A stretch of 24,248 nucleotides of DNA from a virus: positions 1-24,248 of IMG/VR virus record IMGVR_UViG_3300030098_004286; one strand, given 5' to 3'. The position numbers and the translations under genes were made by a program. The notes below the pieces were generated by a model. It searched no databases. It saw nothing but the letters and a program-made list of their open reading frames with translations, and was not told the origin of the DNA. Position 1 is the stretch's first letter, and each line of letters begins with the position of its first letter. Positions 2,318-21,010 of this stretch are shown piece after piece.

Positions 2318-2813
2318 CTAAAACGCTGCGTAATTCTTGGGGGCTTAAGAAGCTCTTGCCGTCGCGATCGCTGAAAGGAACCCAGCCCCCTGCCCGCACA
2401 GCTCTGTAAATTGCGTGGCGCTTGAACCATCCCACGCCGGACGCCTCGCACCCAGCTAGCAGCATATCATCCGCAAACAACCTGTCATCATCCGTGGCTT
2501 CATAGTCGAGCGCCTCCCATGCCACATACAGAAAGTCATGGATAATGGCAGCCTCTAGCCACGGCCCCGTAGGCGCAATTACCGAATGCACTGGAGAGCT
2601 GGTCAGGTCTGTTAGCATACCCTCAGGCGCAGTCACGTGGTGCAGATAGTCATTCTGGTCCCGCCAGCTCACCGTAAAGTCGCGGGCAAGAATAAACTTG
2701 GCATCCCTATCCCTGCGGTATTTGGGCGCATTCACCGCACGCACTAAATGCAGAGGCGTGTGATAGTTGTATTCGGTTATTTCTACAGGGCGCCGTGGAT
2801 AAGGGTTATCCAC
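2304..2813 (-). CDS. DUF1353-like phage protein
   Basis: A protein of 169 aa matching the general pattern of the DUF1353 phage family: an N-terminal strand region (FILARDFTVSWRDQ), a TDLTSSP segment typical of the family, then IIHDFLYVAWEA with the conserved His-Asp pair, and a C-terminal helical part with FADDMLLAGCEASGV. DUF1353 proteins occur in many tailed phages near lysis or tail genes; their role is unknown, and the His/Asp pattern suggests a metal or catalytic site. The start is GTG at 2811-2813, overlapping the stop of the upstream 93-aa gene by 8 nt, so translation is probably coupled. No better start exists nearby. Confidence 0.75.
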   Translation of the reverse strand: MDNPYPRRPVEITEYNYHTPLHLVRAVNAPKYRRDRDAKFILARDFTVSWRDQNDYLHHVTAPEGMLTDLTSSPVHSVIAPTGPWLEAAIIHDFLYVAWEALDYEATDDDRLFADDMLLAGCEASGVGWFKRHAIYRAVRAGGWVPFSDRDGKSFLSPQELRSVLDAPH

Positions 2814-3087
2814 CGAATAATTTACCTACAAGCCCGCCGAGTTGGGGCAGAAACGGGATGCCCACACCAGTACCAATTAGCCCGGCAGCCTTGATCTTGG
2901 GCAGATACTTCTTAACCAGCGCCGCAATGGAATTGATGTTGAAACCATCCCACGCCTTGGCGCCGCCTATTACCTTATCGATTTCAGCGATGCTCTTGAC
3001 GAGGCTATCCCGCTTTTCACGTAAACGCTTGATTGCGGCTGCGGCCTTGCGGGCATCTTCGTCAGCAAATTGGATTTCATCAGCCAT
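2806..3087 (-). CDS. Hypothetical protein, coiled coil plus hydrophobic Gly-rich tail (93 aa)
   Basis: The first ~45 residues are charged and helical (KRLREKRDSLVKSIAEIDKV), likely a coiled coil. The last ~35 are hydrophobic and glycine-rich (AAGLIGTGVGIPFLPQLG, ending LVGKLFGG), enough for a membrane-inserting or amphipathic segment but without a clear transmembrane topology. No family is recognised. The gene lies directly after the small lipoprotein (ATG 2 nt past its TAA) and is followed by the DUF1353-like gene with an 8-nt overlap, in the lysis region. An accessory lysis role or a minor virion component are both possible. That the gene is real is well supported by packing and coding character. 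Confidence 0.6.
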   Translation of the reverse strand: MADEIQFADEDARKAAAAIKRLREKRDSLVKSIAEIDKVIGGAKAWDGFNINSIAALVKKYLPKIKAAGLIGTGVGIPFLPQLGGLVGKLFGG

Positions 3088-3273
3088 TTACTTGGCTCCT
3101 TTGCAGAATTTGTCTGAAATAGTTTCGCCGTTCGCATCTTCACAAACGGTGTAAGTGCTGAACCGGCCAAGCGGGTATTCAACCTGCTTGAATGGGGCCT
3201 TGGGCACATAGTTGCTGGGGGTCGTGCCGCATGCAGACAGCACAAAGAGCCCCACTAAAGCGAGGTAACGCAT
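3088..3273 (-). CDS. Small lipoprotein, candidate outer-membrane spanin subunit
   Basis: A 61-aa protein with a short lipoprotein signal peptide: MRYLALVGLFVLSAC with lipobox LSAC, so lipidation at Cys15 is expected. The mature part is about 47 aa, contains three more residues of interest (Pro-rich start TTPSNYVPKAP; two cysteines in VCEDANGETISDKFCKGAK) and would sit on the periplasmic face of a membrane. It lies 25 nt downstream of the endolysin, the usual place for an Rz1-like outer spanin, which disrupts the outer membrane at lysis. No convincing Rz-like inner partner with an N-terminal membrane anchor is next to it, so the spanin role is an inference from size, lipobox and position. Confidence 0.7.
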   Translation of the reverse strand: MRYLALVGLFVLSACGTTPSNYVPKAPFKQVEYPLGRFSTYTVCEDANGETISDKFCKGAK

Positions 3274-3297: not shown

Positions 3298-3813
3298 TTA
3301 GCCGACGCGCCAGTAATGCGCCTCTGCGGTGATATCCATTAAACGCCGCATCCACCCGAGGCCGAACGTCTTGAAAATTGAAAGACCGCCATAGAAGCGC
3401 CCTCTCCTGGCCCCAATTTCTACAATTAGGCCACGTTGATCTGACTTGTTCTTTGCAGCCGCTAAAGTCTGCGGCCCAATTATGCCGTCATCCTTGACGC
3501 CTAGAGCGCGCTGCAGGAACTTCGCGGCCCATTTGGGGCCTTGATTTACCGCCGCATCAAACAACATTAGATCAACGCCAGTTGGCAACCCATCGCCCTT
3601 AATCACGCCCCAATAGCCGCCGTCATAAATATCGCGGACAACAGAATGCGGAATTTCTTTCAGATCTTTCTTGGTGGCGCCCGGCTTGTACTTTCGGTAT
3701 GTGCGCAGGGTTATGCCCTTGTTCGTTGCGCCGCCCGGATCGAGCCAATGATTTACGTAGCCGCCCTCATGCTTAAGAACGATGTCTAGGGCTACGTCAA
3801 AATGGACTCTGAT
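3298..3813 (-). CDS. GH108 muramidase endolysin with AUC start
   Basis: A phage lysozyme of the glycoside hydrolase 108 family, which cleaves the glycan strands of peptidoglycan. The N-terminal catalytic domain contains KHEGGYVN with the catalytic Glu at residue 16, DPGGATNKGIT and KDLKEIP. The C-terminal peptidoglycan-binding region contains GVKDDGIIGPQTLAA. At 171 aa it has the normal family length, and no signal peptide is seen. The first standard start in frame, GTG at 3606, would delete the catalytic half. Upstream the frame is open to the TAA at 3838-3840 but holds no ATG, GTG or TTG. AGGAG at 3825-3821 stands exactly 7 nt before an ATC codon (3813-3811), which fits the family N-terminus. 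Initiation at AUC, aided by termination of the upstream gene 24 nt away, is the best reading; an ATG-to-ATC mutation or a sequence error is the alternative. Confidence 0.88.
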   Translation of the reverse strand: MRVHFDVALDIVLKHEGGYVNHWLDPGGATNKGITLRTYRKYKPGATKKDLKEIPHSVVRDIYDGGYWGVIKGDGLPTGVDLMLFDAAVNQGPKWAAKFLQRALGVKDDGIIGPQTLAAAKNKSDQRGLIVEIGARRGRFYGGLSIFKTFGLGWMRRLMDITAEAHYWRVG

Positions 3814-3825
3814 TTGCTTTCTCCT
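3814..3825 (-). promoter_or_regulatory. Strong ribosome binding site deciding the AUC start of the endolysin
   Basis: On the minus strand AGGAG is followed by AAAGCAA and then ATC. The spacing of 7 nt is ideal and no other possible start lies within range. The site is 13 nt past the stop codon of the DUF6378-like gene, so terminating ribosomes could re-initiate here. Confidence 0.7.
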
Positions 3826-3837
3826 GACAGGCGCGCA

Positions 3838-4128
3838 TTATTCGCCACGCTCCCGGCTTTCAATCTCAGCGGCAACGCCGATATACCCGGCGGCATCAAT
3901 AAAGTTGTCATCCTTGTGCTTACCGGCCTCTCGAGCAATTTTCAGGAGCGCCATCATAATCGGAACATCAATGGCCCCTAGCTTCCCGCAGTGCCCTTTG
4001 GCTTTCAGATAGGCATTCCACATGCCCACGATGCGTTTGTGTGTTTCCAGTATGTCGCCGTAATCTTCATTTCGTGATCCGGCAACCAAGCTGGCTGCGG
4101 CGTTAAGCGTCGAGGCCGCCTTGTTCAT
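3838..4128 (-). CDS. DUF6378-like phage protein
   Basis: A 96-aa protein that matches the phage DUF6378 pattern: an N-terminal helix (AASLVAGSRNEDYGD), LETHKRIVGMWNAYL, then IMMALLKIAREAGKHKDDNFIDAAGYIGVAAEI. The last segment, with Lys-His-Lys-Asp-Asp and Asp-Ala-Ala-Gly-Tyr, is the most conserved part of the family. It resembles the all-alpha NTP pyrophosphohydrolase (MazG-like) architecture, and a role in nucleotide pools is sometimes suggested, but the function is not established. The ATG lies inside the end of the upstream 48-aa frame (26-nt overlap). The endolysin follows in the same reading frame, 24 nt after the TAA, so readthrough would fuse the two proteins. Confidence 0.78.
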   Translation of the reverse strand: MNKAASTLNAAASLVAGSRNEDYGDILETHKRIVGMWNAYLKAKGHCGKLGAIDVPIMMALLKIAREAGKHKDDNFIDAAGYIGVAAEIESRERGE

Positions 4129-5450: not shown

Positions 5451-5866
5451 TTAGTGGACGTTGAGGCCTGGGCGCAGCTCTATCTTCTGTTCTGAGCTGC
5501 TTTCCTTGGCGCTCTGTTCGCGCCGCCAAATGTAGAGGGGAATTTCAGGCTCGGTGCCATCGTAATTGACGATGCGCCACACAACCATTTTATCACCGTC
5601 ATAGTCAGTGAAGCGTTTGTACACGCTATGCAGCATGACCGCGAATTTAGAAGGAACAACGCTGCAATGTTTGGCGTTTGTTTGCTTGGTAACGGCGCTT
5701 TCGGCAGCTGTTTGGCTTTTTAATGCGCCCTCAACCACGGCAGAAACGCCCTTTTCATCGCAAACGACATACTCGCCAACCACGTCCCCCGCACTATCTG
5801 CGCGAGCGATACTAGAAACGGCAAAGAAAAAGGCGACCGCTAGGGCCGCCCTGGCATAGGGAGCAT
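5451..5866 (-). pseudogene. Exported protein gene with frameshift in the signal peptide
   Basis: The main frame encodes a mature domain of about 110 aa (GEYVVCDEKGVSAVVEG... YDGDKMVVWRIVNYDG), of no recognised family, beta-rich with two cysteines. Upstream of its first GTG (5783) the same frame continues with an obvious signal peptide, ALAVAFFFAVSSIARADS, back to a TAG at 5880-5882, but without any standard start. One frame away, ATG at 5866-5864 has an excellent AAGGA 7 nt upstream and reads MLPMPGR before hitting TAG. One extra base in the GGGCGGCCC run (about 5844-5852) would join MLPMPGR to ALAVAFF and give a perfect signal peptide. A one-base deletion, a sequence error or a frameshifting site would all explain this. 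As written, only a cytoplasmic product from GTG 5783 could be made. Confidence 0.65.
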
Positions 5867-5879
5867 AGGGTGTTCCTTT

Positions 5880-9695: not shown

Positions 9696-10918
9696 TCAAG
9701 TTTCCTCGATTCGGGATTGTAGCGCCTGCGCCTCGCTGCGCCGGGGAGATTCTCAGGCGCAGCAAGCGGCCACCTGTTCCCGCTGCCTTGGCCGTGCACG
9801 ATATCCAAATAAATATTTTGCAAGCGCTTTAGGTTGTATTCCAACTGTTCGCGGCTTTGGGACTGTTCGACGCTACCAAGGGCGGAGGTCAAAAGATCCA
9901 TTTCCGTCTGGTTGATTGCGCCAAGCGCGCCGCCGGTCTTTGAAGCGTTCCGCATGCGCTGCAATCGATCAAAACCAACATTCGCCCTAATCGTCTGCAA
10001 GGTAGAAGCCACATCGCCCGCGGGGCTGCCGCCAATCCATGAAGTGGCCCGCGCGCCCATCCCTGTGGATAGGTTGGGGTTGCTAGAGATCGTGTCCAGC
10101 GCGCGACCGATGTCGGTAATAACCACATCGCCAGCTCGCGTTTGATTGTCACGGCTGGCTTGTGCGGACTGTTCCGCAGCCTGCTGTTCTTGGAAAACGC
10201 TTCCGCCCTGATACGGCAGCGCGATAGGCGCCCCACGATCATCCAAGACAATTTTGCCAAAGGCATCACGCTGCCACACCAAGCCCTTTTCAGGGTCGCC
10301 GTAATCAACGCCTTTCGGGCCTACGGTATTGGTGATGTGGGTCGCCCCCGCGCGCTTTTTAGCGGTTATAAAATCCGTGAAATTCCCCTTAAAGCCGTTA
10401 GCCTGTGCAAACTTAAACTCTTGTACGCTTGCCGGGTCCGCTTGCGGCGGCCTGGCCTTGTTCTGTTGCCTGAACAGGTAATCATCACGGGCGTCTTTGC
10501 GCTGGCGCCGTTCATCGCCCAATGCCTCACGCCTGCTGGCCTGCTGCATAACCATATTCACACCCATTTTCTGCAAATCAGGGTCTTGCGATTCAGCAAG
10601 CAACATAGCTGCCCTGGCTGGATCGGCGGCTCTGGCCGGGGTGTGGGTTACTTGATTGCCCCGCGCGTCCGGTTGGTTCCAAACAACGGTTTGGCCCTTT
10701 TGTGGCTGCATGGCTTGTAACGCAGCAGCGAGCCTACCCTTTGAGTCCTTCCGAATACTAGCGTCCCTCGCCTCTTGCTGCCCGGCCTCATGGCCGATAA
10801 GCGCCTTGGTTAGAACCGAAGCCAGGCCACCCAAGTGGGTTCCATCGTTTGTGCTGGGCTGTTGCGACAACAGTGCCGCCAAACGGTTGCCCCTCGAAAA
10901 GCGATTAAGGTTAATCAT
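9692..10918 (-). CDS. Ejection/internal virion-like protein (408 aa)
   Basis: A hydrophilic, helical protein with high Ala/Gln/Arg content. The N-terminal part (LASVLTKALIGHEAGQQEAR) and the middle (SRREALGDERRQRKDARDDY) look like long helices. A QEFKFAQANGFKGNFTDFIT segment and the C-terminal block (ITDIGRALDTISSNPNLSTG through LEYNLKRLQNIYLDIVHG) recur in phage internal proteins of this type, where the latter is a helical bundle. No enzyme motif is seen. The start ATG has GGAGG 10 nt upstream. By position between two similar genes it is probably one of the proteins ejected with the DNA. Homology needs profile searches. Confidence 0.65.
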   Translation of the reverse strand: MINLNRFSRGNRLAALLSQQPSTNDGTHLGGLASVLTKALIGHEAGQQEARDASIRKDSKGRLAAALQAMQPQKGQTVVWNQPDARGNQVTHTPARAADPARAAMLLAESQDPDLQKMGVNMVMQQASRREALGDERRQRKDARDDYLFRQQNKARPPQADPASVQEFKFAQANGFKGNFTDFITAKKRAGATHITNTVGPKGVDYGDPEKGLVWQRDAFGKIVLDDRGAPIALPYQGGSVFQEQQAAEQSAQASRDNQTRAGDVVITDIGRALDTISSNPNLSTGMGARATSWIGGSPAGDVASTLQTIRANVGFDRLQRMRNASKTGGALGAINQTEMDLLTSALGSVEQSQSREQLEYNLKRLQNIYLDIVHGQGSGNRWPLAAPENLPGAARRRRYNPESRKLE

Positions 10919-10943
10919 CTAGCGCAATCCTCCTATGCCAAGT

Positions 10944-11813
10944 TCATCGCCGACCGCCCCAACCGTAGGCGCCCGCCAGCGCGCCAGTACCAAGCAAGCC
11001 ATACAGTCCGGCGGTTTCCGCACTCCGCGCGGCCCTGTCCGCCGCATACTGGTTAAGGAGCCCGTTATACGAGCCATAAATACTCTCAGCGATGGGAGCC
11101 GCTGCGATGCTCTGCGTAGGCGTATTAACAAAAGCCGGGTTTTGCACTTGCGTGCCGCTGATAAGCGCTGCGGTTTCGTTTAGGGGAACTGAGCGCTCCT
11201 GCAGCATTTCCGAAATAGCCTGGTTTCTCGACGCATTCTCCAAGGCATACATCCTAGCCATTTCTTCGCCTGCAGATGCATCGATCGCTAACCGCATATC
11301 GTTCCGGCTTCTATCAAAATCGCTCATCGCATCGTCATAGGCCGCCGTGCCTTGCTGGAAGCCTTGGTTTACAAGCTGCGTGCGCAGCCTCTCGCGGTCC
11401 ATTTCCAATTGTGGGTTAATGCGGTCGAATTGCGCCTGGGCAACCAGGTTGCGATAGTCTTCATTCGCTACAGGGGCCGCACCCAATGAGCCAAAGTCCA
11501 GAGGGTCGGATAGCCTGTCCCCCACCATCCCAAGCTGTTGGTTGGCAATTTCGCCATATTGCCGTTGCGCCTGGTTGCTAAGGTCGAACAGCTTTTGTTG
11601 GTCGTCCGATAGCGTCTGCGTAGCCGCATATTGTGGCGTGCCGTCCTCCGCGGTGCCGCGTTGGGTGTATTCAAGCGCGCCATATGGCGTGTACTGATTC
11701 ACCATATTGATATTGGCTTGCGAAATAGCAGCCTCTTTGTTCGCCGCCGCCTGCGCCGCCGCCGTCTTTGCAGGATCGGGCGCAGCTGGCGCTTCGGGAG
11801 ATTTCTTACCCAT
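10944..11813 (-). CDS. DNA-transfer/internal virion-like protein (289 aa)
   Basis: The true start is taken as the ATG at 11813, which has AAGGA about 7 nt upstream and gives MGKKSPEAPAAPDPAKTAAA; the longer frame would add unlike residues overlapping the acetyltransferase. The N-terminal helix (AAAQAAANKEAAISQANINM), then NQYTPYGALEYTQRG and LSDDQQKLFDLSNQ, form a pattern shared by a widespread family of podovirus internal or tail proteins. The C-terminus ends in a glycine-rich hydrophobic segment (TAGLYGLLGTGALAGAYGWG). Long helices with Gln, Asn and Arg dominate. Location right after the hub region and before two more such genes supports a role in DNA ejection. It overlaps the GNAT gene by 8 nt. 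Confidence 0.7.
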   Translation of the reverse strand: MGKKSPEAPAAPDPAKTAAAQAAANKEAAISQANINMVNQYTPYGALEYTQRGTAEDGTPQYAATQTLSDDQQKLFDLSNQAQRQYGEIANQQLGMVGDRLSDPLDFGSLGAAPVANEDYRNLVAQAQFDRINPQLEMDRERLRTQLVNQGFQQGTAAYDDAMSDFDRSRNDMRLAIDASAGEEMARMYALENASRNQAISEMLQERSVPLNETAALISGTQVQNPAFVNTPTQSIAAAPIAESIYGSYNGLLNQYAADRAARSAETAGLYGLLGTGALAGAYGWGGRR

Positions 11814-12234
11814 GATATTTCCTTGTGAAGTCGGGTTTAAGCATCCGGCAAATGACTGCGTGGCGCTTCGGCCCAAAGTGATGAGCCAATACCGCTTCTT
11901 GCGTAAATCCTAAGTGCCGATTGAATTTAATAACGCGCTCGCTTTCGTGGGGCGTGGCCGTCCAAATTTTGTTAACGCCCAACTGATGAAAGGGGTAAGT
12001 AAGCAGCCCCTTGATATTGTCTGGCTTGGCCCAAAATGGTGTTACCGAGGCCATGCTAAGTTGAATGGTTAAATAATCCGGCTGATAGTCGTGGTACACG
12101 ACGCCAGCAACTATTTCATGCTTCTTTGATAAAACCCCAATAGCCGCACACGGTCCGAAATCGCCATTGCCAAGATGGGGGATGTTCTCGAAAACCCACT
12201 CCGCAACCTCGGCATCATGGCCATACAGAAGCAA
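11806..12234 (-). CDS. GNAT-family N-acetyltransferase
   Basis: A 142-aa protein of the GNAT fold, which transfers an acetyl group from acetyl-CoA to an amine. After an N-terminal helix (EVAEWVFENIPH), strand AAIGVLSKKHEIVAGVVYHD leads into a segment that differs from the classic Arg/Gln-x-x-Gly-x-Gly/Ala loop, then LLTYPFHQLGVNKIWTATPH, ESERVIKFNRHLGFTQEAVL and a last strand (HAVICRMLKPDF). The NRHLGFTQEA stretch is the hallmark C-terminal GNAT part. The start is a TTG immediately after the TAA of the gp10-like gene, so translation is likely coupled. Similar GNAT genes sit in the same structural position in other alphaproteobacterial podophages as far as recalled. Substrate unknown; a virion protein or host regulator are both possible. 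Confidence 0.8.
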   Translation of the reverse strand: MLLYGHDAEVAEWVFENIPHLGNGDFGPCAAIGVLSKKHEIVAGVVYHDYQPDYLTIQLSMASVTPFWAKPDNIKGLLTYPFHQLGVNKIWTATPHESERVIKFNRHLGFTQEAVLAHHFGPKRHAVICRMLKPDFTRKYHG

Positions 12235-13740
12235 TTAAAGCAGCCCGCCGGGGACATATTGATAGTTGGTTGCCACCCAGGACGGGCGCTGCGTATTCGT
12301 ATCAACGCGCACCCTTAAAGCGCCTGAGCGCCCAATCCCGGTTATGCCTCGCCAGCCCCGATAAACGGTGCCGTCTGTCCCCCACTTATCAATTCCCCAC
12401 TTGCCGCTTCCCCACTTCGCCGCGCTAACGGGCGATGCGGTATTGCTTCCAATGGGTGTGGTGACGGTAAAATCTGTGTAAAAATCCAGCGAAGGATTGG
12501 GATCGCCAGAGCTGGTAAAAATCGGCTCCGCCATTCTGAACGCTTTGGATTTCTTGGACCCGAAATAGTTAAAGGCCTGCAGGGCATCGCCGTTGATAAT
12601 GGACCCTAAGTCCGAATTGCCCGTGTCCAGCTTAATTACCGTGCCCGAATAGGTGCCGCCATATAGCTCGTCATTCAACAAAGACAGGCTAACAACGTTC
12701 TGCCCGGTAAACCGGGCCGGAGCGCCGGTGATGGTGTTGAAAACGTATTGATGCGCCTGACTGTTACCCACAGGAACGTTGAAAAGCATCATGGTGCCGC
12801 GTGGATATAAAACCGGTTGCCAACCAAAATTGCCGCCGTAATCCCTAACGGCATCATTTACCGCCTTGTTGATTTGATCGCTAAGGGCGCCCAGCCGGGC
12901 TTGCGTGCGATCGACCGATAGAATGGATGAGGCCGTAACAAACCCGTCCTCTGTCACCATCACCAAGTCAGGCCCGGCCTTTATCATGCATCGGCGACCT
13001 ATTGGCTTGCCAATTCTAAACACGCCCACCAGCGCCCACTTTGTGGCGTCGTTGGGGTCTGTGCCCTGATATACGATGGCCTCGCCTTCCGATGTCAGGA
13101 ATACCGCGGCATCGTCCTTGCCGTCGCCCGCATCCTGGGTCCAGGTCGCCATCGCCATCAGGTAGCCGCCCTGCGTAGCAATCCCCCCCAGTTTAAATTC
13201 GGTTGCAGCGCCGGTTATGGAATCAACGCCCAAGTACCATGCCGAAAGGCTATTTTGCTCGCCAAACCACAAGCGCCGCTGGTGGAGGTTGCACCATATT
13301 AGGCTCGCCATAGTGGGGCCGGTGGCTGTTGTGGTTGACCACGTTGACCCATCGTACACACGCGGCGTATCCGCACCATTAACGCAGAACAGATATTGCC
13401 CCGCGGCGGTGCCCACATTCACATGCTGCCAGCGGTCGTTAGACAGGCTCGACACATCGGCGGCGCCAACATCGCCCGAACCCGATGCATCATAAATAGC
13501 GTTATTATTAGCCGCGAATAGCTTGGATGATCCGGTAAGCGGCGTGTATTCCATAAGCGTCTCAACCGCACCACTCATTCCAGTGGCATGGGAAACGCTC
13601 CCGCCCCTTAGCCTAACTTCTTCGGTTTCGGGGAACCAATTATCCAGTATAACTGCATGAGTCTCGGGCATATCCGCAAGAGCATCCCTTGTGTTCCAAC
13701 CTCCTGTCGGGGCTGGCAAAGATGAACTTGTGCCGGGCAC
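12235..13740 (-). CDS. P22 gp10-like tail hub / packaged DNA stabilisation protein
   Basis: A 501-aa protein of the group that contains P22 gp10, which plugs the portal exit after packaging and forms the hub on which tailspikes and needle assemble. The N-terminus (PAPTGGWNTRDALADMPETH, then AVILDNWFPETEEVRLRGG) is characteristic. The rest is a series of beta blades (LFAANNNAIYDASGSG, YLFCVNGADTPRVYDG, RRLWFGEQNSLSAWYLG, DAAVFLTSEGEAIVYQG), consistent with a beta-propeller, and ends with tryptophan/glycine-rich strands (KWGSGKWGIDKWGTDG). The start is GTG, sharing a base with the TAG of the upstream chaperone-like gene. Assignment rests on this pattern and on the order fibre, hub, ejection proteins. 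Confidence 0.75.
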   Translation of the reverse strand: MPGTSSSLPAPTGGWNTRDALADMPETHAVILDNWFPETEEVRLRGGSVSHATGMSGAVETLMEYTPLTGSSKLFAANNNAIYDASGSGDVGAADVSSLSNDRWQHVNVGTAAGQYLFCVNGADTPRVYDGSTWSTTTATGPTMASLIWCNLHQRRLWFGEQNSLSAWYLGVDSITGAATEFKLGGIATQGGYLMAMATWTQDAGDGKDDAAVFLTSEGEAIVYQGTDPNDATKWALVGVFRIGKPIGRRCMIKAGPDLVMVTEDGFVTASSILSVDRTQARLGALSDQINKAVNDAVRDYGGNFGWQPVLYPRGTMMLFNVPVGNSQAHQYVFNTITGAPARFTGQNVVSLSLLNDELYGGTYSGTVIKLDTGNSDLGSIINGDALQAFNYFGSKKSKAFRMAEPIFTSSGDPNPSLDFYTDFTVTTPIGSNTASPVSAAKWGSGKWGIDKWGTDGTVYRGWRGITGIGRSGALRVRVDTNTQRPSWVATNYQYVPGGLL

Positions 13741-13946
13741 TACGTCCCCGCCGGGTAGTCGGGCTTTGCAGGAATATCACCCTCGCCAGTGGCAACAATG
13801 TCACGAAGCGAACGCCGATATGTCGCCCAGGCTTGGACATCCTTGGCGTTATAGCTGATGAGGCCTAAGGAAACTGCCTCGGCTATCCTAACAATTACCG
13901 TATCGCTTTCAGCAAGAGCCGTGCTGGCCTCTACTCTCTTGTTCAT
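13740..13946 (-). CDS. Tail-fibre assembly chaperone-like small protein (68 aa)
   Basis: A 68-aa protein beginning MNKRVEASTALAESDTVIVR, with the C-terminal signature AWATYRRSLRDIVA... PAKPDYPAGT. A helix of the form W-x-x-YR-x-x-LRDI followed by a Pro-rich tail is typical of the tail assembly chaperones that lie downstream of phage fibre genes (Phage_tail_APC-like). It begins in a TAATG overlap with the fibre-like gene upstream and would fold or trimerise that protein. The tail pattern is recognisable; the exact family is not certain. Confidence 0.7.
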   Translation of the reverse strand: MNKRVEASTALAESDTVIVRIAEAVSLGLISYNAKDVQAWATYRRSLRDIVATGEGDIPAKPDYPAGT

Positions 13947-14887
13947 TATGCGGCCTCGTAAGTGGCGGTGAATTTAATTGCACGCCCACTACCCCACAGG
14001 GAGGCGTTGTCGTAGCGAGTAACCTGAATTAGGTGCCCCCCAGGCGTGTTAATGATGCCCTTGGCCATGTGCCCGGTGACATTCACCTCCATGCCCGCGC
14101 CGCCAGCGGAGTAAAACCCAGCAAGGCTATTTACTGGAAGAGACACCCCGATAAAGCCGCTAGCGGTGCCCACGGTGGTGATGGTTACTTCAAACCTGTA
14201 AACAACGATCTTGCCAATCTGCAAATAGGCTCCGGATGCGGAAACGGTTGTAGGCGTCCCGGACCCGGCGGTAATGGTTGGTGTGTAGCTCGTCCATGCG
14301 TCGGTGATAGATGACGAAAGCCCAACTACCGGATTACCAGAAACGCCATCGCCATTGGTGATATCTATTTCATCTGTGGTGCCGGTAATCGTGCGGTTGT
14401 TATATGCACCGGCGCCGGTACGCACCAAAACACCATTACTGTCGAAATCCCCGTCCATGACAGCGCCAGCAGCGGCAACATTGGTTGCGTCGGTTACGTC
14501 TGCCGATGCTTCAATGCCGTCGAGCTTGGTCTCATCTGCTACGAGAAATGACGCGGTAGTATTGGCTAATACACTTGAATACGCCTGCACGTCAGAGCCA
14601 ATGGCTACGCCCAAATTAGTTCTAGCATTCGCTGCGGACGTGGCGCCGGTGCCACCATTCGCGACAGGAACCGCGCCCGTTAAGCCCGAAACCGGCGCCG
14701 TGAGCGTTCCCGTTACCTCAAGGTCGCCCGTAACTTTGGCTTCGGACTCCGATAGAGAAAGGGCGCTCTCTGTTCCCTCACCGTCCGATACCCGCCGCAG
14801 CGTGCCATCCACACCTTGGTTGCCGTTGGATACTTGCAGAAAGTCCTTGTAAACATCATCAATGTTTTTGCCCGTCAGGTCGGCCAT
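13946..14887 (-). CDS. Tail-fibre-like protein (313 aa)
   Basis: An N-terminal attachment-like helix (LTGKNIDDVYKDFLQVSNGN) and a TLRRVSDGEGTESALSLSES segment precede VTGDLEVTGTLTAP and VPVANGGTGATSAANARTNL, the well-known repeat motif of phage tail fibres. Then come TKLDGIEASADVTDATNV and a C-terminal beta domain (SYTPTITAGSGTPTTVSASG... IGKIVVYRFEVTITTVG). Composition is Ser/Thr/Gly/Ala-rich with no Cys, as in fibrous trimers. It is followed directly by a chaperone-like gene and preceded by the adaptor gene (TAATG). It is smaller than the second fibre gene at 6658-7866 and shares no obvious sequence with it. Confidence 0.85.
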   Translation of the reverse strand: MADLTGKNIDDVYKDFLQVSNGNQGVDGTLRRVSDGEGTESALSLSESEAKVTGDLEVTGTLTAPVSGLTGAVPVANGGTGATSAANARTNLGVAIGSDVQAYSSVLANTTASFLVADETKLDGIEASADVTDATNVAAAGAVMDGDFDSNGVLVRTGAGAYNNRTITGTTDEIDITNGDGVSGNPVVGLSSSITDAWTSYTPTITAGSGTPTTVSASGAYLQIGKIVVYRFEVTITTVGTASGFIGVSLPVNSLAGFYSAGGAGMEVNVTGHMAKGIINTPGGHLIQVTRYDNASLWGSGRAIKFTATYEAA

Positions 14888-15648
14888 TATGCACCTAAAA
14901 TTATGTTGCTGTTGCCAAGAACGGGAGCGGACTCGTCGCCAGATATTTGCTCCGAAGATTGTCCTGGCTCGCCAGTGAAGTGACGCCCAACACCAAATAG
15001 ATCGCCGGCCACAAGTATGGCCACGTTGGGTTGATCGTTTCCTATTAAGAGTTCAAACCGCTCCTCGTATTGAGCAGCGGCGTGCGCGCTCGGGAGGCCT
15101 TCCGCCTCTAAAAACTCATACCGAACACCGTAAGTAATCAGATCCTCATCTATAACGGCGGTATCACTATCGGCCTCAAAATTAGCCTTGGAAGTGCCGC
15201 CGGAATCCTTCGCCCAGTTCTTGCTTACATATTCAAATGCAAACCGTGCCGCGCCTTGGGGTATCGGGAACACTAAAAGCTCTCCTCCGCGGTAGGCAAA
15301 CTTTCGCGTGCCCTCATAAGTCCCGCTTCTGAGCGTTGCCCATTCAGTAGAGCTAATAGGCCCGGAAATATTGTAGTTGTTGCTCCGGTCCCAAAAAGTT
15401 TCCGGGCAAAAGCGGTCAAAGTCGCTGGGCTTCCAGTCCGCTTCCGTCTGAATAACGGACTTCGTAGCTGTGTAAGAATGCTCTTTTCGCAAGTCCTGCC
15501 AGGCGAAGACCCTCATCAGACGATCGCCCACCTTGTTCGCGTAGCGGAATAAGCGCCTGATATTTGGGTCTGTGCTGGACGCCACCTCAGTAGGGCGCAA
15601 TATCCCTATTTCGTCGGCGGCGTTCTGACAGATAGAAAGCAGAGTCAT
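14887..15648 (-). CDS. Head-tail adaptor / head-completion-like protein
   Basis: A 253-aa protein with an N-terminal helical domain (LLSICQNAADEIGILRPTEV; RRLFRYANKVGDRLMRVFAW) and a beta-containing middle (EWATLRSGTYEGTRKFAYRG; LLVFPIPQGAARFAFEYVSK). This layout recurs in phage adaptor proteins that bind the portal (T7 gp11 / P22 gp4-like position). Helix-rich EDLITYGVRYEFLEAEGLPS follows and then a disordered tail. It overlaps the preceding basic gene by 4 nt (ATGA) and ends in a TAATG with the fibre-like gene. The name is given from pattern and position. Confidence 0.7.
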   Translation of the reverse strand: MTLLSICQNAADEIGILRPTEVASSTDPNIRRLFRYANKVGDRLMRVFAWQDLRKEHSYTATKSVIQTEADWKPSDFDRFCPETFWDRSNNYNISGPISSTEWATLRSGTYEGTRKFAYRGGELLVFPIPQGAARFAFEYVSKNWAKDSGGTSKANFEADSDTAVIDEDLITYGVRYEFLEAEGLPSAHAAAQYEERFELLIGNDQPNVAILVAGDLFGVGRHFTGEPGQSSEQISGDESAPVLGNSNIILGA

Positions 15649-15878
15649 TTAGTGTTGGCCTTTCTTGCGGGCTTGTTGGCACCAGGGATAGCAACAACAT
15701 CGGAAATTTTGCCCGCGGGCTTCTTGCGCGTAGGATTACGCTTACGCTTGGGTTTCGGCTTTTTAACCGCATCCCTGGCATCAGCCTTGGACTTGAACCA
15801 TCCTTCTTGGTCGCCGTCGAAATTCTTTTCAAGCTTGCCGCCAACAATGCGGTAGCGGCGATCCTGTAAATAAGCCAT
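15645..15878 (-). CDS. Small basic Lys/Arg-rich protein (77 aa)
   Basis: The start is taken as the ATG at 15878, not the TTG 6 nt upstream. The N-terminal half reads MAYLQDRRYRIVGGKLEKNF followed by a DGDQEGWFKSKADA segment that looks folded. The C-terminal half is a highly basic, Pro-rich tail (KKPKPKRKRNPTRKKPAGK). No family is recognised; basic tails of this kind often bind DNA or RNA, and the position just before the adaptor gene suggests a minor head protein. One copy of the 20-bp direct repeat ends at its start codon. The stop overlaps the adaptor ATG (ATGA). Confidence 0.6.
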   Translation of the reverse strand: MAYLQDRRYRIVGGKLEKNFDGDQEGWFKSKADARDAVKKPKPKRKRNPTRKKPAGKISDVVAIPGANKPARKANTK

Positions 15879-15898
15879 TCTCAAATAGTCCCAACAAA
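15879..15898. repeat. 20-bp direct repeat, copy A
   Basis: The plus-strand sequence TCTCAAATAGTCCCAACAAA is identical to 16672-16691. On the minus strand it encodes the end of the 38-aa ORF (FVGTI then TGA) and lies directly before the next ATG. Confidence 0.9.
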
Positions 15899-15997
15899 GG
15901 GTGGGATTGCCGGTTGCGTCGTCTTGCGCAACCTTTCTTGGACCTGCTCACGGGTCATGTTGTGTATTTTCATGGTGTGTCGAACTCCATCTCTCAT
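15881..15997 (-). CDS. Small ORF (38 aa) in the duplicated-repeat cassette
   Basis: From the ATG at 15997 this reads MRDGVRHTMKIHNMTREQVQ and ends QPAIPPFVGTI, with TGA at 15881-15883; the second ATG at 15973 is an alternative start giving 30 aa. Its ribosome site would be GAGAGAAGG, just after the stop of the 216-aa gene. The PFVGTI end is also readable in front of the other repeat copy, suggesting a duplicated gene end. No family is recognised. It is supported by packing between two genes, not by homology. Confidence 0.45.
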   Translation of the reverse strand: MRDGVRHTMKIHNMTREQVQERLRKTTQPAIPPFVGTI

Positions 15998-16008
15998 TGC
16001 CTTCTCTC

Positions 16009-16659
16009 TCAAAACCTAATTTTAACCCTTCCCATAATTGTTGGGTCTTCGAAAAACCCGCTTGTCTGTGCGTTGTTGTGAACGTCGATGCTTCCCGAGT
16101 ACTTCCCTTGCGGGGAGTACGATGTCGGCGGCGACGAATACGTGCCTTGGATGCTGTCTAGCCCATAGCCAGACCACTCTGGCTTCATGGACTCGCCCGG
16201 TCTCAGGTACTCCCTCAGTTCTTCTGGATGCGACAAGCTCCCGGAGTAAACGTGACCTCGACCGCCAAGGCCGAAGTTCCCCACGCTTGTGTTCACGTTT
16301 ACACCAGCACCATATCCCATGCCGAAGTTTCTCAAGTCGCCCCTGACCGGGCCGCTGGGCAGGTCATACAGCGGGGATGCTCCTGTCGTAGAACCTGATG
16401 CGTACATCTTCGGCTTTACGTCTGCCCCGAAGATGCTCGCCGACCATCCCTGTGGCCCTTTGTCTTGCTCAAAAAAACGAGCGAACTCAGGGTAGAGGCG
16501 ACTGAGCTTCTTTATGGGCAGCGGCAGCACGGGCGTTTCGAAATCCATGCTACCTGCGTTTGCGGCCTGGTCGGCAAACAGATCGCGCGGCGCAGCGTAT
16601 GGCAGCCAATGCCAAGCGCCCTTGCTTGGCTGCTTTTTCTCTAGCAGACCCCGGGGCAT
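16009..16659 (-). CDS. Novel Gly/Ser/Tyr-rich protein (216 aa), possible moron
   Basis: The start is the ATG at 16659, with GAGAGG 8 nt upstream; the longer frame from TTG 16677 overlaps that site. The N-terminal third is helical and hydrophobic-rich (KKLSRLYPEFARFFEQDKG). The C-terminal two thirds are rich in Gly, Ser, Tyr and short strands (NFGMGYGAGVNVNTSVGNFG; YSSPPTSYSPQGKYSGSIDV) and end MGRVKIRF. Alternating strands with a C-terminal Phe resemble a small outer-membrane-type barrel or an adhesive surface protein, but no signal peptide is present, so a virion decoration protein is as likely. No family is recognised. It lies just after the coat terminator, between two copies of a 20-bp repeat, and so looks like an insertion into the head gene cluster. 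Confidence 0.65.
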   Translation of the reverse strand: MPRGLLEKKQPSKGAWHWLPYAAPRDLFADQAANAGSMDFETPVLPLPIKKLSRLYPEFARFFEQDKGPQGWSASIFGADVKPKMYASGSTTGASPLYDLPSGPVRGDLRNFGMGYGAGVNVNTSVGNFGLGGRGHVYSGSLSHPEELREYLRPGESMKPEWSGYGLDSIQGTYSSPPTSYSPQGKYSGSIDVHNNAQTSGFFEDPTIMGRVKIRF

Positions 16660-16671
16660 TACTTCTACCTC

Positions 16672-16691
16672 TCTCAAATAGTCCCAACAAA
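16672..16691. repeat. 20-bp direct repeat, copy B
   Basis: Identical to 15879-15898. This copy lies between the coat terminator and the ribosome binding site of the 216-aa gene, and on the minus strand reads into TTTGAGAGAGG, part of that site. Confidence 0.9.
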
Positions 16692-16719
16692 AGGAAAGGC
16701 CCGCCCCGAAGGGCGAGCC
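16688..16719 (-). terminator. Intrinsic terminator with UUCG loop after the coat gene
   Basis: On the minus strand GGCTCGCCC, TTCG and GGGCGGGCC give a 9-bp stem with one G-U pair closed by the very stable C(UUCG)G tetraloop, then TTTCCTTTT. It begins 9 nt past the coat stop codon. It would cap the coat mRNA, protecting its 3' end and lowering expression of the genes beyond. Confidence 0.85.
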
Positions 16720-16727
16720 AGTTAGTC

Positions 16728-17939
16728 CTAGTTAAAGCCGTAACGCACGGCCAATTCCGGACGAATTGCTTTGTAACCGTACAAAACATCAATACGGCAA
16801 GGGAACTTGTCGTTGTTGATGTCGTAGTCACGCACAATCCGCATGGAAATGCCGTCAAGCACTTCGCGCGCCGAGAAATCAACGCCGGACGGCATCACAA
16901 GGTCCGCAGTCGCGAACGCAAAGGCCTCTTTGTGGAAGCCCAAGCTAACCTTGTAATCCGCACTTGCGCCAATCGCAGTGCTATCATCACTCTCACGCTT
17001 CCAAACCTGCGCATTGTCCGCCGGAGAGCCGGTGACGTTCTGCGAGGCGCCCGAAACGGTGATGGACGGCGAGATTGATAACGAAGTTGCGGAAGCTCCG
17101 GCGTCAGCCGTCACAACGAACTTCATAAGCTCGCCCGTGTCGGCTTTGGTTTCCGGATGCACGCGATTCACGCCCGTAATGGACAGGATGTCGCCCTTCT
17201 TCCAAGTTCCGGCGCCGGTATCAACCGTCAACGTGGCGCCCGTTTGGGACGCGCCATTAACGAGGTAATCGCCGGTGCCGTCATCCGTGCCGGTGGTGTG
17301 CGTCGGCCAAAGCGTATTGCAATAAACATCTTTGTACCCAACGAACTGATTAGCCACCATGCCTTCCTTGAAGTTTTTGCCGATGTTGGCTTGAGGGTTG
17401 AACAGGCCGCTAAGTGCCGACACGAGGTCAACATTGTCGCGGGTATTCAGGTTCAAGCAACGATTGCTGGACGGCGTAAGTGCGTCTTCCAGCTTTTTGG
17501 CACCTTCAAGAACGTCATCCAGGGTGATGGACGCACCAACGTCCGAAATTTCTTGGTAAACGTCCTTGTACATGGACATGGCGTCATTCTCGATATTCGC
17601 GGCCAAAACCGACATAGCCGGTTCAAGAATGCGATCCGAGAAATCATCCAATTCCATCGTCAATTCAGCGGACGTAAAGTTGACATCCACACCCTTTTGC
17701 GTGGCAACTTGCAAAGTGGTGCTTGATTCGGTGGTGTCCTGCGCCGAAAGAGTTGCGCCCGTCCGAACCGTGTATTGGTTGGGCAAGCGAATTTTCAGCG
17801 AGTCACCGATTTTTGCGCCAGATTTGGCGTAGGAGTCGTCATACTCCCGCGTTACGTTCCCAACGAAATTCAGCTTTTGATGCAGAATCCGCAGGGCCTC
17901 CCGCGTTACCGCGGTCGGAGTTAAAATGCTATTAGCCAT
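16728..17939 (-). CDS. Major capsid (coat) protein, P22 gp5-like
   Basis: A 403-aa protein (P22 gp5 is 430 aa) with the N-terminal pattern of the P22 coat family: MANSILTPTAVTREALRILH followed by KLNFVGNVTREYDDSYAKSG and GDSLKIRLPNQYTVRTGA. The coat folds as an HK97-type shell protein with an inserted domain in this family; the middle (TLTVDTGAGTWKKGDILSIT, GVNRVHPETKADTGELMKFV) corresponds in position to the telokin-like/inserted beta domain. The C-terminal part has FHKEAFAFATADLVMPSG and RIDVLYGYKAIRPELAVRYG, as in many phage coats. The ribosome site GAGGG is strong, 7 nt from the ATG. It follows the scaffold gene and is followed at once by a UUCG terminator, as suits the most abundant late product. 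Confidence 0.92.
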   Translation of the reverse strand: MANSILTPTAVTREALRILHQKLNFVGNVTREYDDSYAKSGAKIGDSLKIRLPNQYTVRTGATLSAQDTTESSTTLQVATQKGVDVNFTSAELTMELDDFSDRILEPAMSVLAANIENDAMSMYKDVYQEISDVGASITLDDVLEGAKKLEDALTPSSNRCLNLNTRDNVDLVSALSGLFNPQANIGKNFKEGMVANQFVGYKDVYCNTLWPTHTTGTDDGTGDYLVNGASQTGATLTVDTGAGTWKKGDILSITGVNRVHPETKADTGELMKFVVTADAGASATSLSISPSITVSGASQNVTGSPADNAQVWKRESDDSTAIGASADYKVSLGFHKEAFAFATADLVMPSGVDFSAREVLDGISMRIVRDYDINNDKFPCRIDVLYGYKAIRPELAVRYGFN

Positions 17940-17997
17940 TGGTATTTCCCTCTAAAGGAATAGGCGTCGCCTCACGGCGGGCCTGCCTCGCGAGCTA

Positions 17998-18960
17998 TCA
18001 TTGCGCTCGCTTGGCGAGTTGCTGATTGCGCCTGCGTGCCCATTCAGCCGCGCTCATTTTGTCGGCGTCTGCGTTCAAGTCGAGACTTGGACCGCGGGTA
18101 TTGCCCGATTTGGCTTTCGCCTTGACGGGCTTTGCAGGTGCGGGTTTCGGTTTGGCCTCTTTGGCCTTGGCTTGCATTCGATCGAAAAGCATTGCCTTGT
18201 GAACGGCCAACGTAATGGCTGGGTCTAGTGCCCAGTCACCTTTCGCGGCTTCGGGCTCGATCCCCAACGTCTCAACGGCATAGTTGATAACGTCTGGTAG
18301 GTGCGCGGCCTCAAAACCGGGTACTTGCCTCTCAATCAGGGCCTTGCCTTCGCTAACGCGGCGCTCCGTTTCTTCGGTGAGCGCAGTTTCTAGCTTGGCC
18401 TCTGCTTCAGAGACGGCGTCCACGGATGCTTGGAAATCGCGCTGTTTTGCAGAGAGCATATCTGAAACGCGACGGGCCTGATCCGGATCGGATTGCCACA
18501 TCTCATTCAAATTCATGCTTTCCAACTGCTCGATTTCTTGCCGCAAACGCAAGCCAATTGAATAAATCTCCAGGGCCTCGCCTTGAAAAGATTCAAGTTT
18601 CTGGACTGCACCCTCGCGTGCTTCCAGAGCCTTGCCCTTCTCGACAAGCTCCTGCTTGTTCTTGGTGTAATCGGACCAAGTGCCTTTGGTGAATTGATCG
18701 ATCTTGTCGGCAAGCTCATCGGGGACGCTGCCCTTGGGCAGTTCCATTTTGTTCCCGCCGAAATCAAACTCGATTAATTCGATTTCTTCCTCTTCCTCCG
18801 GGTCGGCTTCCGCATCTTCCTCTTGAGGGTCATCCTCTTGGGCTTCCGCTTCTAGCTCGTCGGGGGTTTCGGGTTCTGAAACGTCATCGGCTTCCGCTTC
18901 CGGCGTTTCAATGGTTTCTGCTTCGGCTCCGTCTTCAACGGCGGCCAATTCATCTGCCAT
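17998..18960 (-). CDS. Scaffolding protein, P22 gp8-like
   Basis: The chosen start is the ATG at 18960 (GGAG 7 nt upstream) giving MADELAAVEDGAEAETIETP; the longer frame adds four residues with a weaker site. The product is about 320 aa: a very acidic, disordered N-terminal ~70 residues (EEDAEADPEEEEEIELIEFD), a long helical middle (KNKQELVEKGKALEAREGAV; AVSEAEAKLETALTEETERR), a Lys/Ala/Pro linker (KAKEAKPKPAPAKPVKAKAK) and a basic C-terminal helix pair (MSAAEWARRRNQQLAKRAQ). Basic C-terminal helix-loop-helix segments bind the coat in P22 gp8. Position between portal and coat is the P22 order. It is not incorporated in the mature head in P22. Confidence 0.8.
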   Translation of the reverse strand: MADELAAVEDGAEAETIETPEAEADDVSEPETPDELEAEAQEDDPQEEDAEADPEEEEEIELIEFDFGGNKMELPKGSVPDELADKIDQFTKGTWSDYTKNKQELVEKGKALEAREGAVQKLESFQGEALEIYSIGLRLRQEIEQLESMNLNEMWQSDPDQARRVSDMLSAKQRDFQASVDAVSEAEAKLETALTEETERRVSEGKALIERQVPGFEAAHLPDVINYAVETLGIEPEAAKGDWALDPAITLAVHKAMLFDRMQAKAKEAKPKPAPAKPVKAKAKSGNTRGPSLDLNADADKMSAAEWARRRNQQLAKRAQ

Positions 18961-18990
18961 AATTCTCTCCATCTATGGGATTGCGGCGCA

Positions 18991-20853
18991 TCACTGCGCG
19001 GCTGTATTTCCTCCATTAAAAAACCCGGCCTGAGCCGGGTCGATTGGGGGAACTGGTTGGCCGGGCAACCCCGGCTGCGCTGGTTGGCCGGGCAACCCCG
19101 GCTGCGGCTGAGTTACAGCCTCTACCTTGTCTGCCAGATCATCAGCCCCCACTACATCCATATGACGCAGTAGCATCGGGCCAATAAACGGCGCTGCGGC
19201 GGGGTACACCCGCAGTATTTCAAGTAATGCCTCGCGGGTTTCTTCGCGCTGTGTGGCGAAATTCGGGCCGCTTTCAACGGTTACATCGTAGGTGCCAACC
19301 CCTAGATTATAGAGCTTGCGCTCACCATCCTCTTTAAATTCGCCGGGGTTTTCTTGGGTTAGGTTAACAACGTTCTCTTTTTGGTCGGGGCCAAGTATGC
19401 GGATGGCTTCCCGGGCCCCATACACATGGGGGATAATTTCCACCAAGCACCGCCCAGCGTACTCAACGGCGCGATTCAGGTTATCAACGAAATGATAGTT
19501 GCTGATATCGCCCTGGCGCTCGCGGGCCAAGATTGCCCTGCCGCTTGTTTCATTCGATCGCGCGCCCAACGAACTATCATAAATCCCAGTAATGGCCTTG
19601 ATATCATCTGATGCGTTTAGAGCCTCTTGGATGGCGCCCGCGGGCACGCCCGCAAAAGGCTGCCGTTGCGGCGCCGCTTGGCCCTCATATTCCAGGTGGG
19701 CGTGGGAGCGTGTGTTAGCGGTTGCCCATTTTTCTTCATGCCCCTTCGGCACAAAACCTTTCGGGCCGATAAACGGCGCACGGGGGGCCAGGGCCACCAA
19801 CTCAGTAGAGGCGGAGCGCCAGTAATTGAACATCTGCTGCGGGTCACGGGCATCGCGAATTAGTGAGCGGAAATGCCTGCGCCCTTCGCTGTAAACCTCA
19901 TCACCCAACACAGGACAAATCGGAATCGTAGAGCCCGGCCACTTGGACTCCTCAAGAACATCGGCGCCAGAGATAACCCGGCGCGTGACTTCGTTAAATG
20001 TGCTTTCGCGTTCGCGGACAGCCTCTAGCCCCGTGTCAATGCTGGCAGCGGTTAGGACTTCATCATCCTTGAGCTGCTTGGCAATCTCCGAGTCCATACC
20101 GCCCGCGACCAAAACCTCCCGGGCCAGATCGGGCAAATGTTCTTCGCGGACAACGCGGCCATTATTGAGTTGAACGATCTTCTTTTTGACCTGTGTGCGC
20201 TCCCAATACTCGGCAACGCGAATATTGTCATCGCTCAACCAATGCTCTACGCCGTCAAATGTCGAGCCTTCAAATTCAACCTTGTCCGCATCAGGGTAAG
20301 CCGCCTCGAATTGTTCTTTCGTGTAGAACTCCGAGACAAATGCATATTCCCAATCGCTGGCATCCGCCTCTGAGCTGTTTACATCCCAGTGCACCATCAG
20401 GGGGTTTGGGACACGCTTGAAACGGCACTCCATTTCAAACGACATCGGATGTACATAATCGATTTCCAGTCGGAAAAAGCCAAACCCGCTCGTTACTGCG
20501 TGATCAACAGCGGTATCCTTAGCGACATCGCCGCCCTTGCGCTCTATGGCGCGTACCAAGCCACCAATGACCTCAGCGGTGCCCTCGTCCGCGCCATTGT
20601 CTACCGGGCGCACTTTAACGCCAGGCGTTGTGCGGCGCGCTTCGTTGGTTACTTGGCGAATAAACGTAGGCAGCCTGTTGATAGTGAGGCAGGGGCGGCC
20701 CTCTTGGGTGCGAATCTTCTTAATGTCTTTGGGCCACTGATCCGCCAGGCGCGCAAAGCGTATGTCTTCCTGCGCCTCATCTCGGTTGTGACTAGAAACT
20801 GTCTGAGATTCGTCGAATTTCTCCAACGCCTCAGCAAGTATGTCTTTATCCAT
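18991..20853 (-). CDS. Portal protein, P22-like
   Basis: A 620-aa protein of the P22 portal family (gp1, 725 aa). The N-terminus contains KFDESQTVSSHNRDEAQEDI and FARLADQWPKDIKKIRTQEG, then GRPCLTINRLPTFIRQVTNE ARR-type wing sequence and SGFGFFRLEIDYVHP. Later parts include YWERTQVKKKIVQLNNGRVV and the stem-helix/crown region SGRAILARERQGDISNYHFV. Twelve copies form the ring through which DNA is packaged and ejected. The C-terminus is Pro/Gly/Gln-rich with a perfect 9-residue repeat (QPGLPGQPx, twice), so it is shorter than and different from the long P22 barrel. The ribosome site is GAGG 6 nt from the ATG. The last codons contain an intrinsic-terminator-like hairpin. Confidence 0.92.
   Translation of the reverse strand: MDKDILAEALEKFDESQTVSSHNRDEAQEDIRFARLADQWPKDIKKIRTQEGRPCLTINRLPTFIRQVTNEARRTTPGVKVRPVDNGADEGTAEVIGGLVRAIERKGGDVAKDTAVDHAVTSGFGFFRLEIDYVHPMSFEMECRFKRVPNPLMVHWDVNSSEADASDWEYAFVSEFYTKEQFEAAYPDADKVEFEGSTFDGVEHWLSDDNIRVAEYWERTQVKKKIVQLNNGRVVREEHLPDLAREVLVAGGMDSEIAKQLKDDEVLTAASIDTGLEAVRERESTFNEVTRRVISGADVLEESKWPGSTIPICPVLGDEVYSEGRRHFRSLIRDARDPQQMFNYWRSASTELVALAPRAPFIGPKGFVPKGHEEKWATANTRSHAHLEYEGQAAPQRQPFAGVPAGAIQEALNASDDIKAITGIYDSSLGARSNETSGRAILARERQGDISNYHFVDNLNRAVEYAGRCLVEIIPHVYGAREAIRILGPDQKENVVNLTQENPGEFKEDGERKLYNLGVGTYDVTVESGPNFATQREETREALLEILRVYPAAAPFIGPMLLRHMDVVGADDLADKVEAVTQPQPGLPGQPAQPGLPGQPVPPIDPAQAGFFNGGNTAAQ
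19018..19040 (-). terminator. Terminator-like hairpin inside the last portal codons
   Basis: On the minus strand ACCCGGC, TCAG and GCCGGGT form a perfect 7-bp stem with a 4-nt loop, directly followed by TTTTT. It encodes part of DPAQAGFF near the end of the portal. By sequence it is a textbook rho-independent terminator or attenuator, placed about 60 nt before the scaffold start. Confidence 0.7.
19053..19106. repeat. Perfect 27-bp tandem duplication in the portal C-terminus
   Basis: Positions 19053-19079 and 19080-19106 are identical. In the portal frame each copy gives nine residues, QPGLPGQP plus one more, a short collagen-like or disordered segment. Confidence 0.95.
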
Positions 20854-21010
20854 TCACAACCTCGGGGGATTTTATGGCCTCGCGGACCTTGTTTTCTAAG
20901 TAGAGTTCCTGCGCGAACTGGGTCCATGTGGCGAAGTCGGGGTTTTCTTCCAGCGCCTCTTCAACCAAGCGCGTGGCGAGTTCAGTCTGAGTTTCCACTA
21001 AGCCATCCAT
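20846..21010 (-). CDS. Small helical protein between terminase and portal (54 aa)
   Basis: The start is taken as the ATG at 21010, which overlaps the last codons of the terminase gene; the longer frame from 21094 lies fully inside terminase and is unlike coding sequence. The product (MDGLVETQTELATRLVEEAL through TWTQFAQELYLENKVREAIK) is charged and helical, with no recognised family. Its stop overlaps the portal ATG by 8 nt, so the three genes are coupled. A head assembly or packaging accessory role fits the position only. Confidence 0.65.
   Translation of the reverse strand: MDGLVETQTELATRLVEEALEENPDFATWTQFAQELYLENKVREAIKSPEVVNG

Follow-up and report, generated by a model that had tools for sequence, protein, structure and literature searches.

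Organization of the endolysin locus

The window, by which we mean the whole 24,248-bp stretch of DNA analysed here, is a linear IMG/VR record (IMGVR_UViG_3300030098_004286) that encodes on its minus strand what, judged by sequence, is a typical phage endolysin of the GH108 (N-acetylmuramidase) family (Table 1). Its GH108 domain is near full length (positions 2–85 of 85, Pfam E = 4.1e-25), as is the C-terminal PG_binding_3 domain (2–75 of 76, E = 7e-10); the protein matches PHROG 315 (endolysin, 5e-46) and has relatives of known structure in PDB entries 7dnp (1.9e-33) and 2ikb (2.8e-29). The EGG(Y) motif of GH108 is present N-terminally as KHEGGY and is invariant in a 10-phage alignment, and its glutamate is stated to be essential in PMC12561047 and PMC11131426. 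Apart from its start the gene is undamaged: neither a stop nor a frameshift interrupts it, and it retains every column that is invariant in the alignment.

Two small open reading frames follow in a row. The 61-aa ORF, which had no family match in Pfam or PHROG, is a possible outer spanin by virtue of its lipobox-like motif, and the 93-aa ORF may also serve lysis. No tRNA was found in the 24,248-bp window.

Table 1. Positions of the features discussed, numbered along the window.
Feature	Position	Strand	Basis
Endolysin coding sequence from ATC, 171 codons + stop	3298..3813	-	GH108 + PG_binding_3, PHROG 315, PDB relatives, alignment
ATC at start position, 15 codons before catalytic Glu	3811..3813	-	Homologous codon in relatives
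Shine–Dalgarno (SD) AGGAG, spacer 7 nt	3821..3825	-	Sequence
GAG of KHEGG, catalytic Glu of GH108	3766..3768	-	Column invariant across 10-phage alignment; literature
GTG, first canonical start codon, after catalytic half	3604..3606	-	ORF list
DUF6378 gene, TAA 3840-3838 in endolysin frame	3838..4128	-	Pfam DUF6378 5e-23
13-codon ATG ORF, overlapping, one frame off, ends TTT TGA C	3797..3838	-	Sequence
61-aa lipoprotein-like ORF beside endolysin	3088..3273	-	LSAC lipobox-like motif by eye
93-aa ORF, next in row	2806..3087	-	Charged N-half, hydrophobic C-terminus
Second gene without in-frame start	5451..5879	-	Signal-peptide-like stretch upstream of first GTG (5783); codon usage

The open frame of the endolysin extends from 3837 to 3298 (179 codons), directly behind the stop of the DUF6378 gene. 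The codons after that TAA are TGC GCG CCT GTC AGG AGA AAG CAA ATC AGA GTC CAT TTT GAC GTA GCC CTA GAC ATC GTT CTT AAG CAT GAG, and none of them is ATG, GTG or TTG; the first canonical codon in the frame, the GTG at 3606, comes 54 codons after the GAG of KHEGG. The first-pass annotation had proposed an endolysin initiating at AUC, noting that the GH108 domain with its KHEGG glutamate extends upstream of every ATG, GTG and TTG in frame, that the previous gene's stop closes the frame 24 nt before the ATC, and that AGGAG stands exactly 7 nt before it; each of these observations is borne out. It was also right that a gene predictor would miss the catalytic half, as an ORF list confined to ATG, GTG and TTG returns the C-terminal 102 aa only. 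It was silent on the frame shared with DUF6378, on the overlapping ATG ORF and on the second startless gene.

It could be argued that no full-length endolysin is made at all, that only the C-terminal piece from GTG 3606 or nothing is produced, and that lysis is left to an enzyme encoded outside the 24-kb fragment. The record is indeed a linear fragment, and the ORF list yields 3298–3606 alone. We nevertheless regard this as improbable, because the GTG-3606 piece is without the catalytic glutamate and no other lysin family was found among the proteins scanned from the fragment.

The ATC occupies the start position of the family

AGGAG lies exactly 7 nt upstream of 0.074% of minus-strand positions in the window, and 5–9 nt upstream of 0.37%. 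The endolysin has one of only four 5-nt core matches among 31 listed gene starts, some of which are provisional. The ATC stands exactly 15 codons before the glutamate, where starts are most frequent in the family; given this position and the rarity of the 7-nt arrangement, the pairing of SD and ATC is not a chance one. Secondary structure around the start is unremarkable (z 0.10).

Ten phage relatives, 42–46% identical to the endolysin, were aligned. In five, the annotated ATG aligns precisely with the ATC; another four are annotated to start no further than one residue from it. For a broader count of starts, drawn from the matches listed, we took 10 phage records together with 80 IMG/VR and 80 GTDB loci, and L029 and L068 were dropped as truncated; the 168 usable relatives (78 viral, 80 genome and 10 phage) are not de-duplicated, as L056 and L109 share an N-terminus and several come from Aquamicrobium, and they include seven loci in which the matched region reached back past a stop. 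At the position 15 codons before the glutamate, 100 of the 168 have a canonical codon (ATG 89, GTG 10, TTG 1), and a canonical start is found 12–20 codons before the glutamate in 156, leaving 12 without. All 168 have a canonical codon somewhere in frame upstream of the glutamate, including L061, which is cut at a contig end, has such codons only 5 and 7 before the glutamate, and is uninformative. Fourteen listed rows are without a canonical start 11–20 codons before the glutamate, namely L029, L068, L061 and 11 relatives that have longer frames and begin more than 20 codons ahead of the glutamate. An ATC does occur at the −15 codon of three relatives, each with an ATG beside it or just upstream; a relative that relies on AUC or another near-cognate start at the endolysin was found in 0 of the 168 examined.

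Codon usage draws the same boundary. A score trained on 11 long genes of the window reaches 0.331 between the ATC and the GTG, versus −0.54 and −0.82 in the other frames, and falls to −0.635 in the 8 codons between the stop and the ATC, a small sample. Since the start column is homologous and the coding signal sets in at the ATC, comparison with the family places the true start position of the endolysin at this codon, in agreement with the earlier proposal.

Possible alternative routes into the catalytic domain

DUF6378 and the endolysin share one frame across a TAA TGC junction, an arrangement in which readthrough of the UAA would give a DUF6378–endolysin fusion. We find this barely credible: the 8 codons from stop to ATC score as non-coding, the fusion is annotated in none of the nine annotated phage relatives inspected (the tenth carries no annotation), TAA is also the stop of the endolysin, the 61-aa ORF and the gene at 5451, and the AGGAG before the homologous start would serve no purpose. 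An alternative genetic code was considered and rejected, because the endolysin gene itself terminates with TAA, the codon that also stands upstream of it.

A programmed +1 frameshift offers another way in. Translation would start at the ATG at 3838, which overlaps the DUF6378 stop, and pass along the leading ORF ATG CGC GCC TGT CAG GAG AAA GCA AAT CAG AGT CCA TTT TGA C to shift at UUU UGA C, giving a product that begins MRACQEKANQSPF-DVAL where an AUC start would give RVHFD. A YUU UGA C slip site is present (TTT TGA C at 3802–3796), the UUUU permits perfect re-pairing, and the phenylalanine coincides with the family's N-terminal F/Y. The +1 frameshift site of prfB is CUU UGA C, and frameshifting of this type relies on a stimulatory SD-like element placed ~3 nt ahead of the codon that slips. 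The window has in common with prfB a YUU UGA C that ends a short leading ORF, but it differs in the stimulatory element: CAGAGTCCA precedes the TTT, with no SD-like stimulator 3 nt upstream. Moreover, CTT-TGA or TTT-TGA ends 8 of the 415 short ATG ORFs of the window, followed by C in 3 of the 415, so that a match to the slip site is not very rare. Such a shift would also leave the AGGAG at the homologous start unexplained, and the relatives of the endolysin, unlike prfB, start directly. We consider this route very improbable.

Close relatives and the wider window

Among the matches listed from viral contigs, genomes and alignment scans, no relative of the endolysin exceeded about 55% identity. 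In the genome searches, matches at E ≤ 1e-42 numbered 3 of 397 in the order of G002 and 10 of 398 in the order of G003, with a best identity of 55%; endolysin peptide patterns drew 20 stretches from viral contigs, none of them a relative, and no relative was found by way of the DUF6378, 93-aa ORF and HsdS searches. A phosphoesterase search returned three loci (L002, L003 and L004) that are ~62% identical, and none of these matched the endolysin or DUF6378. In L002 and L004 a different lysozyme-like ORF lies downstream (its type judged by eye), and lysis modules seem to have been swapped within this phosphoesterase-sharing group. The 12235–13740 protein recovered 16 loci, 0 with an endolysin match.

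The same virus was met in a second sample (3300030329), where contig L175 differs from the window by 1 mismatch in 10,627 bp; it spans 10761–21387 only and is thus without the endolysin gene. The mismatch, at 17942, falls just before the ATG of the coat gene. From the same sample, the first 99 positions of the 35-kb contig L209 are identical to window positions 5506–5604, inside the gene at 5451, and beyond position 99 L209 diverges into what by eye is a tail-fibre-like end; the identity may reflect a shared assembly-graph k-mer, with one of the two contigs wrongly extended.

That gene, 2 kb from the endolysin, is itself startless. It opens with a stretch that by eye resembles a signal peptide, ARAALAVAFFFAVSSIARA, and scores 0.216 by codon usage versus −0.29 and −0.87 in the other frames, and an SD-like AAAGGA with an ATG at 5866–5864 stands one base out of frame. 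We read this as an apparent one-base frameshift close to the start, which may be a mutation, an indel error or recoding. The protein had no match in 385 genomes or in phages.

The head genes of the window are P22-like (P22 coat 1.3e-37 and Terminase_3 2.7e-21 in Pfam), and phage matches of the portal include annotated P22-like portals. The portal gene carries a 27-nt perfect tandem duplication (19053–19106) in the part that encodes its C-terminal tail. A 23-nt direct repeat (96%; 15879–15901 and 16672–16694) stands just before the likely ATG starts of two head-region genes and is a possible promoter, leader or insertion footprint.

On the plus strand, opposite to the phage genes, positions 1–2165 hold the C-terminus of HsdM, HsdS and an SNase-like ORF, the type I restriction–modification genes hsdM and hsdS occupying 1–1701. 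HsdS had no relative in the viral contigs searched and the hsdM DNA has its best match, at 75%, in a Tritonibacter replicon, so that this region is probably host DNA and the window a provirus end. Lysis genes at such an end could decay unselected.

A private change or a maintained weak start

We favour, with a probability of roughly 0.6, a private change from ATG to ATC, by mutation or consensus error, that would leave the gene with weak AUC initiation. The ribosome entry site would comprise the AGGAG and the codon at 3813–3811, where relatives carry ATG, and the ATG would have been turned into ATC by a one-base change confined to this provirus or its population; a consensus error is the less likely source. 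If made, the endolysin would start at AUC with formyl-methionine at a fraction of the AUG rate, assisted by the favourable SD and by ribosomes that finish DUF6378 24 nt upstream and could feed the site. In E. coli an SD promotes re-initiation and excess IF3 suppresses it (PMC2268962), and IF3 disfavours weak third-base pairs (PMC10158994). What the sequence shows is the identity of the gene, its start position, the SD and the lack of a canonical start; we infer the recent origin of the ATC, the reduced output and the coupling to DUF6378.

As all 168 relatives have a canonical codon before the glutamate, a loss on the window's branch is the parsimonious reading. Given the second start-proximal lesion at 5879–5451 and the likely host DNA at 1–2165, a private mutation or an error in the consensus is no less probable than a regulatory origin. 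Counting against the private change, the remainder of the endolysin is intact and hence bears no mark of prolonged decay, the capsid and terminase genes also look whole by Pfam coverage, and the single difference in 10,627 bp from L175 implies an error or variant rate so low that a chance hit on a start codon is improbable a priori.

The main rival is an evolved and maintained AUC, a weak, IF3-sensitive start that would lower or delay the endolysin and make lysis depend on how the host is translating. The well-spaced SD, the DUF6378 stop just upstream, the fully intact frame and the low variant rate all fit such a start, and precedents are described in two papers, namely a natural AUC start in Streptomyces infC (PMC5472188) and AUU/AUA starts with extended SDs conserved in Staphylococcus (PMC13009471). 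The SD here, however, is a plain 5-nt core and not extended, no relative above ~55% identity was found among the matches listed to show conservation, and 0 of the 168 relatives are without a canonical codon upstream of the glutamate. The first-pass annotation had cast AUC as a simple way to delay or lower endolysin production; this idea is not supported, as no examined relative uses AUC and the nearby gene at 5451–5879 is start-damaged in an unrelated way. By the same annotation, ATG in relatives would point to a mutation: 89 of the 168 have ATG at this codon, the closest relatives listed being ~55% identical. We judge a maintained AUC unlikely, though deserving of weight.

More doubtful still is a version in which AUC has been fixed as the endolysin's only start, IF3 discrimination holds endolysin output down and termination-coupled re-entry from DUF6378 raises it, such that the timing of lysis would read the host's IF3/ribosome balance. 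If true, this would parallel, in a phage, the way infC regulates itself. The sequence observation is confirmed and out of the ordinary; its start codon is a lone, unconfirmed case that more likely reflects a private change than regulation.

Comparison with known near-cognate starts

AUC is named among the bacterial initiation triplets in a review (PMC4611024), rny was expressed at much lower levels when given an artificial AUC start (PMC10303841), and AUU and AUA starts in S. aureus work at ~10% of AUG, and at up to 30% in one medium (PMC13009471). The near-cognate starts of infC, the gene for IF3, are documented and IF3-autoregulated (PMC5472188, PMC13009471): ATT in E. coli, ATC in Streptomyces and AUA in S. 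aureus. The window shares with them a near-cognate A-U-N codon but differs in that this codon belongs to the lysis gene of a phage and is a solitary case that awaits confirmation. Similarly non-canonical are the starts of Streptomyces sigR (GTC), S. aureus cvfC1 (AUU) and ccpN (AUA) and Y. pestis rcsD-Hpt (AUU), which lower expression, are easily missed by annotation and, in contrast to the ATC of the window, have experimental support. In the window, no canonical start fits the conserved N-terminus, and the distance from AGGAG is suitable.

A phage endolysin starting at AUC was not found in the open-access literature searched. Since AUC starts are already known in bacteria, as in Streptomyces infC, the endolysin would be at most a new phage example. 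If its AUC is maintained, lysis genes would be added to the short list of bacterial genes whose level depends on a near-cognate start, and such enzymes would be clipped by ORF callers restricted to ATG, GTG and TTG. If the change is private, the case advises caution, in that start-codon oddities of single metagenomic contigs should be checked against reads or close relatives before any regulatory account is built on them. With the GH108 phage endolysins (PF05838 + PF09374), the protein is alike in domain order, EGG motif, invariant residues and length, and its start position is exactly homologous; the difference lies in the start codon, ATG, GTG or TTG in the family where the window has ATC.
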